From NCBI RefSeq assembly GCF_000147715.2, contig NC_017934.1, forward strand, positions 1,426,001-1,490,000: a stretch of DNA of 64,000 nucleotides. The letters are read 5' to 3'. Source of the DNA: Mesotoga prima MesG1.Ag.4.2. GTDB taxonomy: Bacteria > Thermotogota > Thermotogae > Petrotogales > Kosmotogaceae. The first letter of the stretch is position 1. The number at the start of each line of letters is the position of its first letter. Positions 40,410 to 44,587 of this stretch are shown here, in pieces. Under the pieces are notes generated by a model, which was given only the letters and a program-made list of their open reading frames with translations, did no database searches and was not told where the DNA came from. The translations under genes were made by a program, and so were the position numbers.

Positions 40410-41435
40410 ATGAAACTGAAAAGAGAAATCCTTATTATTGCCACTTCTTGTGTCTTGCTATGCCCGACAAATTTCTCTGCTTATTCATTGTCGGAGATTG
40501 GAGAACTTGCAGAGCTTCTTAAGCAATTATTTCTGGCCTCAAGAACGGCCAGAGATTTCTCTCTTGAGAGTCTCAAAGTCGATACCGAAGAATTCCCTGC
40601 AGTTGACTTTGTGGTTAAAGAGGATGTCGTTTATTCGGAAGTTGATGGAGAGATACTCACAATGGATGTTTACTATCCTGCCAGAACTACTGCTCCAAGA
40701 CCTGCAATACTGTATGTTCACGGAGGCGCCTGGATTACTGGAGACAAAAGGAGTGGACCCGGCGTAGTAGTTACCGGTGAGCTTATAAGAGCCGGATTCA
40801 TCGTATTCTCCATCGACTACCGGCTCGCCCCCAAATGGAAGTTCCCATCGCAGGTCATTGACGTAAAAACGGCAATTCGATTTGTAAGAGAAAATTCCAC
40901 CGAATTACTGATTGATCCTGAAGCAATCGGAGGCTTCGGAACAAGCGCCGGTGCACATCTTGTAACGCTTGCTGCATTGACGGCAAATACCGGCATGTTT
41001 TCTGAAGACAAATACTCAGGTCAGGATGAAAATCTTTTCTGTGTCGCTGATCTCTACGGACCCACCGATCTTGAAGCCCTATTCGAAGGTATTGAGAGAG
41101 AGGTAGCGGAGTTGATCTTTGGGAATGAAGAGGGAATACTTAGAAAGGCGAGTCCAATCAACTATGTAAATAAAGATTCCCCACCATTTCTGATAGTTCA
41201 GGGTGATAGCGATCTTGTCGTACCGGTCGATCAATCGAAACGCTTCTTCGAAGAGCTCACTGCTGCCGGATGCTATAGCAAACTGGTGGTGGTAGAAAAC
41301 GCCGGGCACGGGTTGGTGCCCGACGGAGGAGAAATCAAACCTTCACTTATAGATGTCGCAAAAATAGTTGTCGGCTTCTTTCAAAGGCAAATGATTATCC
41401 AACAATCTCGGATAAATCTTCTTCTACGGTTCTAA
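40410..41435 (+). CDS. Exported alpha/beta hydrolase (esterase/lipase of the HSL/BD-FAE type)
   Basis: N-terminal signal-like segment (LIIATSCVLLCPTNFSAYS split by charged start). Then a hydrolase core: YVHGGAWITGDKRSG (oxyanion HGGAW), DYRLAPKWKFP, GGFGTSAGAHLVTLAAL (nucleophile Ser), Asp in VQGDSDLVVP and His in ENAGHGL. Acts on esters outside the cytoplasm; substrate unknown. Starts 19 bases after the coiled-coil gene, so probably co-transcribed. Its last 41 bases overlap the convergent hcp gene. Confidence 0.85.
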   Translation: MKLKREILIIATSCVLLCPTNFSAYSLSEIGELAELLKQLFLASRTARDFSLESLKVDTEEFPAVDFVVKEDVVYSEVDGEILTMDVYYPARTTAPRPAILYVHGGAWITGDKRSGPGVVVTGELIRAGFIVFSIDYRLAPKWKFPSQVIDVKTAIRFVRENSTELLIDPEAIGGFGTSAGAHLVTLAALTANTGMFSEDKYSGQDENLFCVADLYGPTDLEALFEGIEREVAELIFGNEEGILRKASPINYVNKDSPPFLIVQGDSDLVVPVDQSKRFFEELTAAGCYSKLVVVENAGHGLVPDGGEIKPSLIDVAKIVVGFFQRQMIIQQSRINLLLRF

Positions 41436-43053
41436 TAGGCTTTATATCGAAGTTTTCCACAAGAACTTTCAGAACATTCGGTGAAATGAAAGCTGGCAGT
41501 ACCGGACCTAAACGAATCCCCTTTACTCCCATATATAGAAGCGCAAGGAGTACAGCTACCGCCTTTTGCTCGTACCAGGCAATATCATACTCGATTGGGA
41601 GATCATTTATATCCTCCAGACCGAAAGCCTCTTTAAGCTTCAAGGCAGTCACAACCAACGAGTATGAATCGTTGCACTGCCCTGCGTCTACTACTCTGGG
41701 AATGCCTCCTATGTCGCCCAGATCTAGCATGTTATACCTGTATTTTGCACAACCCGCGGTTAATATTACCATGTCTTTAGGCAGCCTCTCGGCCAGGTCC
41801 GTGTAGTACTGTCTCTTTTTAGCATGTCCATCGCAACCGCCCATTACCACAAACTTCTTAATTGCACCTGTTTTCACTGCATCAATTATCTTATCGGAGA
41901 CCTTTGACAGCTGATCGTGGGCCAGCCCAACAACGATTTTCTTGCCTGGTCTAGCTCCGATATCGCCTATTTCAAGAGCCTTTTCGATGATCGGCGTGAA
42001 ATCCTTCTCTTTCCCGTCAACTCTGTTTGGGATGTGCGATACCTCGGGCCATCCGACAAGACCAGTAGTAAATATCTTGTCCTTATAAGATTCCCTCGGC
42101 CTCTGAATACAATTCGTGGTCATTAGAATGGGACCCTTGAATTCTTCGAATTCCTTCTGCTGATTGTACCAGGACGTTCCGAAATTGCCTCTGAGGTGAG
42201 AGAACTTTTTCAGTCCGGGATAACCATTCGCAGGAAGCATTTCACCATGAGTATATATATTTATTCCCTTTCCCTCGGTCTGTTTCAGGAGCTCTTCTAG
42301 ATCAAGAAGATCGTGCCCACTAACCAATATCCCCGGTCCTTCATACGTGCCGGTATAGACTGACGTGATTTCCGGGTTTCCATAGCTGCCGGTGTTTGCT
42401 TCGTCCAGTAAAGCCATTGCCTTAACTGCATACTCGCCCGCTTTCAAAACTAGCGCAACGTAGTCTTCAGCTGTCAATGAGTCGTTAAGACAGGAAGCGA
42501 GCGCCTCCTGAAGAAAGTCTAGTATAGAATTGTCAGAGTGCTTTAGGATATAGGCGTGATCTGTGTATGCTGCAATTCCTTTTAGGCCGTAGGTGAGAAG
42601 CTCCCTCAACGAACGAATATCTTCATCCTGCGTATCAAGAACACCCACTTGAGCACCTTTGGCCTTATAAGACTCCACTCCACGTGATGACTCCCAAGTG
42701 CATGCTTCAGGCATCGGTTCGCTGAATTCCTTTCCTTTCTCTTTTCTGTAAGCCTCTTTGAAGATTCTTTCGATTCGTCTTCTTACATTGAGGGCCCTGT
42801 CAATCTTCTTACCCAGACTCTCGGGATCAAAATCCACATTTGTAATCGTTGTGAAGAGGCCTTCAGCAACATAAAGACCGGTTTCAGAATCTTTCACTCC
42901 CATTTCTTGCGCTTTGACGCCCCACAAGGAAATCCCTTTCAAAATCCATATCAGAAGATCCTGGAGATCGGCTACTTCCGGTTCCTTTCCGCAGATACCT
43001 TGGACAGTGCAGCCAGTACCCTTCATCGATTCAGAACACTGAAAACAAAACAA
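41395..43053 (-). CDS. hcp: Hybrid cluster protein (hydroxylamine reductase / NO-stress protein)
   Basis: The TTG at 43053 follows AAAGGAGGGATTAGA and gives MFCFQCSES at the N-terminus. Cys 3, 6, 15 and 21 (CX2CX8CX5C) are the class I spacing for a cubane 4Fe-4S cluster found in anaerobes. Hybrid-cluster ligands appear in LVSGHDLLDLEELL, TTNCIQRP, GGCDGHAKKR, GCAKYRYN and GQCNDSYS. 552 aa, standard. The family reduces hydroxylamine or NO and protects against nitrosative stress. It is preceded by a perfect GTAAC-N4-GTTAC palindrome. No hcr partner gene is adjacent. Confidence 0.93.
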   Translation of the reverse strand: MFCFQCSESMKGTGCTVQGICGKEPEVADLQDLLIWILKGISLWGVKAQEMGVKDSETGLYVAEGLFTTITNVDFDPESLGKKIDRALNVRRRIERIFKEAYRKEKGKEFSEPMPEACTWESSRGVESYKAKGAQVGVLDTQDEDIRSLRELLTYGLKGIAAYTDHAYILKHSDNSILDFLQEALASCLNDSLTAEDYVALVLKAGEYAVKAMALLDEANTGSYGNPEITSVYTGTYEGPGILVSGHDLLDLEELLKQTEGKGINIYTHGEMLPANGYPGLKKFSHLRGNFGTSWYNQQKEFEEFKGPILMTTNCIQRPRESYKDKIFTTGLVGWPEVSHIPNRVDGKEKDFTPIIEKALEIGDIGARPGKKIVVGLAHDQLSKVSDKIIDAVKTGAIKKFVVMGGCDGHAKKRQYYTDLAERLPKDMVILTAGCAKYRYNMLDLGDIGGIPRVVDAGQCNDSYSLVVTALKLKEAFGLEDINDLPIEYDIAWYEQKAVAVLLALLYMGVKGIRLGPVLPAFISPNVLKVLVENFDIKPIRTVEEDLSEIVG

Positions 43054-43078
43054 TCTAATCCCTCCTTTACTGACAGTA

Positions 43079-43123
43079 ATTATCTTACAGACGCCCAGAG
43101 GGAGAATCGGTAACATATGTTAC
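43079..43123 (-). promoter_or_regulatory. Candidate HcpR (CRP/FNR-type) site and -10 of hcp
   Basis: GTAACATATGTTAC at 43110-43123 is a perfect 14-bp palindrome with CRP/FNR-like five-base halves. GATAAT (43084-43079, minus strand) is a plausible -10, putting the palindrome centre about 44 bases upstream of the expected transcription start, close to the class II activator position. A GTAAC-N4-GTTAC motif has been predicted for HcpR in some anaerobes (from memory). Confidence 0.6.
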
Positions 43124-43135
43124 ACAGGAGATCGA

Positions 43136-43915
43136 TCAATAATATGTGTACACCCTTGAGTAAATAAATTCTTCGGGAGCGCTTGAGCTATCCAGGAACT
43201 CAATTCTCCTAAGTTCCCGAACAGGGTTGCCTTGTTCGTCCGTGAGGAGTATATCGATTCGACTTCTGAACTCCGAAGCCTGTTCCCTGCCTTCCCTTCT
43301 AACCCTAACTACTGTCTTCTCGCCCACCAAATGTCCATTGGAATCATAAGTGAATGTGCTTTCCACTACTATGTTAACCTCCATATCTAGTTCAGAAACG
43401 TTTTCTCGAATGAGGGAATACCTCTCTGATTTTCTTCCGTTCTCATCGAAGAAGAGAGTATTCGTTGAAACGCCAGTTTCGGTTTCAACAGAAAAGATCA
43501 GAGTTCTTTCTTCGCTGTTAATCCAGTAGCGAGTTCTTTCGAGTTCAATACCTGAATCGTCAAAGGCCACGGCATCGTAGTGATCATCTTCATAGAGCAC
43601 TTCAACCCTCTGGAAAACTGTACCGTCTCGGTTGATGAAGTCCTTTCTTCTCAGTCTGCCGGAGTCGTCATAGAAGTATTCTATCTTCACTTCTTCAGTC
43701 TCCCTCGAGATTAGAAAACCCTTTTCATTAAAGGTCAGCGTCTCCGGATCGGAAATCAATAGTTCTGCTCCTAACTTTGCTATCTCTATCTGTACAGTAT
43801 GTACCTTTCCAGAAAAACCAAACTGTAAAGCAGACAGATCTTCCTCCATAAAAACGGCAAAAAGCGAGCTTAGAAGCACAAAGAAAGACAGTGCAATCAC
43901 GAATACTTTTCTCAT
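43136..43915 (-). CDS. Exported protein with YD/RHS-like repeats, unknown function
   Basis: 259 aa. Signal peptide residues 1-20 (RKVFVIALSFFVLLSSLFAVF). The mature part consists of short beta units with a Tyr-Asp/Asn-Gly turn: FTYDSNGHLVGEK, YFYDDSGRLRRKDFINRDGT, AFDDSGIELERTRYW, FFDENGRKSERYSL. The pattern recalls RHS/YD repeats but without the long array or a toxin tip. Probably an envelope protein. Its stop lies 13 bases from the hcp palindrome. Confidence 0.65.
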   Translation of the reverse strand: MRKVFVIALSFFVLLSSLFAVFMEEDLSALQFGFSGKVHTVQIEIAKLGAELLISDPETLTFNEKGFLISRETEEVKIEYFYDDSGRLRRKDFINRDGTVFQRVEVLYEDDHYDAVAFDDSGIELERTRYWINSEERTLIFSVETETGVSTNTLFFDENGRKSERYSLIRENVSELDMEVNIVVESTFTYDSNGHLVGEKTVVRVRREGREQASEFRSRIDILLTDEQGNPVRELRRIEFLDSSSAPEEFIYSRVYTYY

Positions 43916-44077
43916 ACTCTCGCCTCACTCACTCGAAAATAGAATCTAAGACAATCATAACAAATACTGATCTAGCCGGAATGAAAAACCGGCAGTGCCT
44001 GCAAAGTTTCTATTAAATGTCAATTCTTCTGATATACTGAGAGTGATGATGAACAAGCTTCTCACGGGGTGATCACT

Positions 44078-44587
44078 GTGACTTTCAAAGAACTGTCTGA
44101 GCGAAGTGGTATTAGGTACGAAACGGTACGAAACTATGTGAAAGTCTTAATAGAAGAAGGTCTTATCGACGAAGTAAGCGAAGAAGTTGTCGAGATCGTC
44201 AAGAAGATGCCTGACTACACTTCTCAAGGGCTCACAGTAGTCGAAGCAGCACACAGAGCGGTTAGTGGCGAGCAAAAAGATAGCCGCACATCTACCGAGA
44301 CTCTGAAGCTTAAAGAGAGAATCGCATGTCTTGAAGAAGAAAACAAATTGCTGAAGGCTGAACTTGACAAAGAAAGAGCTCCGACAAAACAGCTTGAGGA
44401 GAAAATTCAATCTCTTGAAGGCGGTCAGACTAGTTCATCTGGAATAGCAGTTTACAGGGAAGAGGCAAAGACTGCTGCAGAAGCACTCAAAACCGCGATA
44501 AAATCCGCTGGAAGCGGGTTTGTTCAGTTCCTTCAGTGGCTATTTGGCGCAGAAGCCGAAAAAGTTGAAGAGAAATCAGAAAAGTAG
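44078..44587 (+). CDS. HTH + coiled-coil protein of unknown function
   Basis: The GTG at 44078 follows GGGGTGATCAC, an extended anti-SD match. The N-terminal 35 residues look like a MerR/winged HTH (TFKELSERSGIRYETVRNYV). After a linker, residues about 75-110 form a leucine coiled coil (LKERIACLEEENKLLKAEL). The tail GSGFVQFLQWLFGAEAEK is amphipathic and may touch membrane or partner. 169 aa. This could be a small DNA-binding protein or a MerR-like regulator without a recognised ligand domain. No operon partner. Confidence 0.6.
   Translation: MTFKELSERSGIRYETVRNYVKVLIEEGLIDEVSEEVVEIVKKMPDYTSQGLTVVEAAHRAVSGEQKDSRTSTETLKLKERIACLEEENKLLKAELDKERAPTKQLEEKIQSLEGGQTSSSGIAVYREEAKTAAEALKTAIKSAGSGFVQFLQWLFGAEAEKVEEKSEK

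Follow-up and report, generated by a model that had tools for sequence, protein, structure and literature searches.

A predicted HcpR2 operator upstream of hcp in Mesotoga prima and a putative four-gene nitrogen-oxide regulon in the genus

The perfect palindrome GTAACATATGTTAC upstream of hcp in Mesotoga prima is most probably the operator of an unlinked HcpR2-type activator of the CRP/FNR family, encoded at G000:C1:1120631-1121311, which would mediate class II activation of hcp and three further units in response to nitric oxide (NO). From the sequence evidence, this reading was given a probability of about 0.9. The window, meaning the whole stretch of DNA analysed, was 64,000 nucleotides in length (positions 1426001-1490000 of the contig). 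In the proposed mechanism, NO (or nitrite by way of NO) would bind haem held by HcpR2, and the HcpR2 dimer would then bind GTAACATATGTTAC centred at -41.5. The bound dimer would recruit RNA polymerase to an hcp promoter with a -10 (TAAGAT) and without a -35, as in class II activation, and the gene for the detoxifying enzyme Hcp would be switched on. The same dimer, acting at the same spacing, would activate the units of a flavodiiron NO reductase (FprA/NorV-like), a DUF438-hemerythrin-PAS protein and a cupin. The mechanism itself is already known; the four-gene regulon and the cupin are new.

The palindrome is located at 43110-43123 (no strand assigned) and is perfect over all 14 bases, as the first-pass annotation had claimed. 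That annotation had also called it HcpR-type, and it does fit the published HcpR2 motif GTAACnnnnGTTAC, which was described together with its regulator class (PMC1274295). A one-mismatch scan of the window returned this palindrome as the sole match, and base composition predicts about 0.07 perfect matches per 64 kb. The whole genome (2,975,953 bases) contained four perfect copies of GTAACNNNNGTTAC against 3.3 expected from base composition, so the bare 10-base motif was not enriched and says little by itself. All four copies also carried an inner A..T (GTAACANNTGTTAC, the 12-base form), for which 0.25 occurrences were expected and one was found with the reversed-pattern control, and a start codon was present 56-64 bp downstream of each (56.5 to 63.5 bp from the site centre). 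The common inner A..T and the 56-64 bp start-codon distance in all four sites are beyond chance. The inner A..T was taken from these four sites and then applied to other genomes. By inspection, only two of the 56 one-mismatch matches in the M. prima genome kept it, one overlapping a start codon and one inside a coding region; the sites in this genome were therefore counted as four and not more. A scan of the same genome with a CRP-type motif gave three matches against six for the reversed control. An RNA element in the window was considered and rejected, as an Rfam scan of it gave no match.

The hcp gene, for the hybrid cluster protein / hydroxylamine reductase, occupies 41395-43053 on the reverse strand (552 amino acids) and was identified by NF003658 (810 bits, cut-off 367) and TIGR01703 (740 bits). 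Its best start is the TTG at 43053, on the basis of the conserved FCFQC and of the ribosome-binding site GGAGGG upstream, seen in the sequence at 43060-43065 on the reverse strand. The ATG given in the list of open reading frames was rejected as the start because it falls inside the palindrome. For the promoter, the first-pass annotation had proposed GATAAT (43079-43084, reverse strand) as the -10; this was replaced by TAAGAT (43082-43087, reverse strand), which overlaps it 3 bp out of register and is the hexamer conserved in relatives, as judged from the TAnnnT spacing there. With the transcription start thereby inferred at 43075, the site centre is at the canonical -41.5 instead of -44.5. 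The palindrome had been described as centred about 44 bases before the predicted start, which holds only if this is the transcription start inferred from GATAAT and fails for the start codon, 63.5 bp from the centre. Its placement at activator distance stands, as -41.5 is a class II position, and so does the lack of a good -35: the best TTGACA match at a spacing of 16-18 shared 2 of 6 bases. On the same strand, an open reading frame of 259 amino acids with no family match (43136-43915) ends 12 bp upstream of the palindrome, and relatives of this frame are found ahead of hcp elsewhere in the genus; read-through into hcp is therefore possible. Farther upstream, a 172-amino-acid frame on the forward strand (44069-44587) has a winged-helix N-terminus and a coiled-coil-like middle, with relatives near hcp in two other genomes (G001 and G009).

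The genes after the four sites of the M. prima genome are hcp (in the window), the flavodiiron gene fprA (NF008887, the NO-reductase flavorubredoxin model, 701 bits, cut-off 635), the gene of a DUF438-hemerythrin-PAS protein and that of a 108-amino-acid cupin. Across ten congeneric genomes, all 34 exact sites preceded one of these four genes. The site was present before hcp in 9/9 genomes with an hcp match (G005, 80% complete, gave none), before fprA in 9/9 where the upstream region was available (in G008 a contig end interrupts the gene), before the DUF438 gene in 8/8 testable genomes and before the cupin gene in 8/8, no cupin having been found in G001 and G005. For the DUF438 count, the copy of G008 was truncated and G004 gave no match, while the site and gene start of G001 were on a separate contig from the main match. 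The flanks of the sites had diverged among the genomes, while the same four genes and one spacing were retained (34/34). Both comparisons proposed in the first-pass annotation were thus borne out, the palindrome being present before hcp in close relatives and also before other nitrosative-stress genes. In the 2005 study (PMC1274295), the HcpR2 regulon of the Thermotogales is reported as hcp only. No description of a four-gene regulon in Mesotoga, Kosmotoga or the Thermotogales was found in the open-access literature. The present set therefore extends the published one and proposes, for mesophilic Thermotogota, a nitrogen-oxide regulon that is complete and open to testing.

Promoters activated in class II fashion by CRP/FNR proteins have a site centred at -41.5 or -42.5 and a -10, and have no -35. 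The hcp promoter of Mesotoga is alike in all three respects, its transcription start being inferred from the -10. TAnnnT was found in 34/34 promoters of the genus, starting 29.5 (n=26) or 30.5 (n=8) bases from the site centre, and the fullest TAnnnT column in 1000 spacer shuffles held at most 6. Taking the last T of TAnnnT as -7, the site centre was at -41.5 or -42.5 from the inferred start in all 34. The best TTGACA match at a spacing of 16-18 was no better in these promoters than in shuffled sequence. In other genera, TAnnnT, mostly as TATACT, was present at this distance in 23 of 25 near-gene sites; of the other two, one was cut by a contig end and one was the second fprA of G010. Judged by its sequence, the hcp site with its lone -10 is a class II activator layout. 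Agreement of the motif with the published consensus, the 34/34 sites before the same genes and the fixed -10 spacing all argue for HcpR2.

HcpR2 might instead be a repressor at the hcp site, released by NO. Proteins of the CRP/FNR family can repress, and such a model was proposed for a Desulfovibrio desulfuricans protein named HcpR2 (PMC5701242), a name in common that does not imply orthology to the Mesotoga protein. A repressor would, however, tolerate other positions than the -41.5 or -42.5 without a -35 seen in 34/34 promoters, and activation of hcp has been reported for the HcpR of Porphyromonas gingivalis (PMC12750200). Repression is accordingly considered improbable, and HcpR2 is taken here as a putative activator that would bind the site.

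Three matches to the cyclic-nucleotide-binding domain PF00027 were found in the genome (contig C1, 468966, 1120946 and 2019224). None was inside positions 1426001-1490000, so no CRP/FNR gene was seen in the window, in agreement with the first-pass annotation, which had also suggested a search for one elsewhere in the genome and had named its absence as grounds for refutation. The protein at 1120631-1121311 (L003, 227 amino acids) is the candidate; its sequence, its recognition residues and its place in the tree point to an HcpR2 orthologue. Its recognition helix, ARPSLSR, has Arg-Pro at CRP positions 180/181, as do 30/30 HcpR2 orthologues, and Pro-181 is described as characteristic of HcpR2 and as paired with the motif GTAACnnnnGTTAC (PMC1274295). 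Matches to L003 were obtained in all ten genomes of the genus (E <= 6.0e-86) and in 34 of the 41 genomes surveyed (E <= 1.2e-33). In a tree of 30 orthologues and eight other CRP-type proteins, the 30 HcpR2 proteins formed one clade (support 100/99), including hcp-linked regulators of other Thermotogota; the HcpR2 proteins covered by the tree were those of Thermotogota. An FNR-type conserved cysteine cluster was absent, only three columns having Cys in at least 5 of the 30 proteins, with a maximum of 23/30. Among solved structures, the best match to L003 was PDB 1o5l ("transcriptional regulator, crp family"; E 1.2e-31), which we take to be Thermotoga maritima TM1171. Both have Arg-Pro in the recognition helix, but 1o5l has His at the Met68 position, where HcpR2 orthologues have an invariant Met. 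On these grounds of orthology and recognition residues, the regulator can be identified from sequence, as can the site, its spacing, its conservation and the genes downstream.

The genome encodes one other full-length CRP-type protein, L001 (217 amino acids), and the site might also be read by L001 or by L001 together with HcpR2. L001 indeed belongs to the CRP/FNR family and has both a sensor and an HTH domain, but its recognition helix has Arg-Glu, as in CRP, and not Arg-Pro. Furthermore, all four sites are present in G007 (99% complete, one contig), for which a single CRP/FNR protein was seen among the full-length matches listed, and the sites of other genera adjoin HcpR2 genes, not L001-type genes. 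A part for L001 is therefore considered unlikely, slightly more so than repression. The orthologue of HcpR2, by comparison, carries Arg-Pro and adjoins site-bearing hcp, DUF438 or cupin genes in other genera, which favours it as the reader of the site. L002, the third protein with a cyclic-nucleotide-binding domain, was rejected as the regulator, no HTH domain having been found in it.

The likely sensing mechanism was suggested by a single residue. Met64 was invariant in 30/30 HcpR2 proteins and was the only conserved His/Met position (threshold 24/30). In L003 it aligned with a Met of the PDB 9day chain, and Met68 of P. gingivalis HcpR was placed in that local sequence by the translated primer sequences given in PMC12750200. 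According to the same study, Met68 is a haem ligand and is required for hcp activation. The P. gingivalis protein thus resembles the Mesotoga regulator in that it also regulates hcp and in that its Met68 aligns with the Met invariant in 30/30 relatives. The similarity of the two proteins is modest (E 2.8e-21), and P. gingivalis HcpR has Gln-181, where L003 has Pro-181, and recognises another site (PMC1274295). Haem binding and NO sensing by Mesotoga HcpR2 would be consistent with the shared Met.

The 12-base form was surveyed in 41 genomes, comprising that of M. prima and 40 relatives, and was found 63 times against seven for the reversed pattern. Of these exact sites, 59 had the start of hcp, DUF438, hcpR, fprA, cupin or a NapH-like Fe-S gene no more than 131 bp downstream. 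Exact regulon sites were present in 26/34 genomes with HcpR2 and in 0/7 without it, which, with the Met invariant in 30/30, argues for HcpR2 as the regulator. The site was also kept in other families of the phylum. A chance sequence or non-functional remnant was rejected as having almost no probability. In its favour are the roughly 3.3 bare motifs that chance would give per genome and the 4/63 exact sites (G022 L095, G034 L088 and L089, G039 L084) that overlap other open frames with no regulon gene near. Against it are the reversed-pattern control, the 34/34 sites that keep one spacing to a fixed set of four genes despite diverged flanks, and the conservation in other families. The eight genomes with HcpR2 and without an exact regulon site were seven of genus g6 and G033 (g12). 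Six of the g6 genomes had no exact site and G034 had only two, in coding frames. The inner bases of the site may have drifted in this genus, which keeps HcpR2. Looser sites, GTAACCCATGTTAC and GTAACCCAGGTTAC, were observed before DUF438 in G034 and G035 (L119, L120).

Among the other genera that carry the site, most have hcpR next to its targets. In other genera of the family (G011, G012, G015, G016) and in those of the sister family, hcpR was divergent from DUF438-hcp, cupin-hcp or hcp, with a single site between. In 15 of 16 divergent cases, 18-45 bp separated the site centre from the hcpR start, and in G028 the distance was 61.5 bp, which suggests autoregulation of HcpR2 in these genera. 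In the genus of Mesotoga, hcpR was not linked to hcp, the regulator and its targets being scattered in the genome, and no stretch with fewer than four mismatches to GTAACAWWTGTTAC was present in about 350 bp upstream of hcpR (300 bp in G008) in the ten genomes. The HcpR2 regulon of Rodionov et al. (2005; PMC1274295) is like that of Mesotoga in the motif GTAACnnnnGTTAC, the Pro-181 CRP/FNR regulator, hcp as a target and a regulator adjoining hcp in related genera. It differs in the Thermotogales, where hcp is its only reported member, while Mesotoga has four units and an unlinked regulator without its own site. As that report describes the regulator gene as "often" next to hcp, and not always, adjacency is not an obligatory feature of HcpR2. 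Since hcpR is elsewhere and without a site here and adjoins its targets in other genera, an ancestral block of hcpR and targets seems to have been split in this genus, each unit keeping its operator at the same spacing; fprA and a cupin are also part of the set. The regulon is thus scattered over the chromosome while every promoter holds its operator at one exact spacing. The unlinked regulator without its own site was counted against HcpR2, as were the lack of enrichment of the bare motif and the eight HcpR2 genomes without an exact regulon site.

Two further site-bearing arrangements were observed outside the genus. In genus g3 (G011, G015, G016; L093, L094, L090) an exact site and a TATACT box, at class II spacing, precede the gene of a NapH-like membrane Fe-S protein, which is a further regulon member there. 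In G010 (L155; G010:C134:9200-12300) a site occurs 90 bp before a flavodiiron gene of a second type, 32% to the M. prima fprA, followed by a cupin of a second family (51% to that of G021); the -10 spacing of this promoter is outside class II.

The M. prima cupin (L004:1125-1451; 108 amino acids) is a small, single-domain protein. The cupin is preceded by its own class II HcpR2 site in this genus and in G012, and in other Thermotogota the second cupin family is part of cupin-hcp or fprA-cupin units that follow HcpR2 sites. It is conceivable, though somewhat short of an even chance, that the cupin is an overlooked and widely shared part of the Hcp/hemerythrin defence against nitrogen oxides, handling nitrogen oxide, metal or haem for the pathway. 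This uncharacterised cupin would then act alongside Hcp and proteins of the hemerythrin type in several phyla. Among 79 loci of cupin relatives in public genomes (L243-L321), the three from Thermotogota were the only ones with an HcpR2 site before the cupin. The fetched flanks of 24 of the 79 contained hcp or DUF438, always on the same strand and often with a gap of less than 100 bp to the cupin. These 24 loci, L283 among them, are not independent, as most are from Bacteroidota MAGs; the set also includes Desulfatitalea (L246) and an Eremiobacterota MAG (L272).
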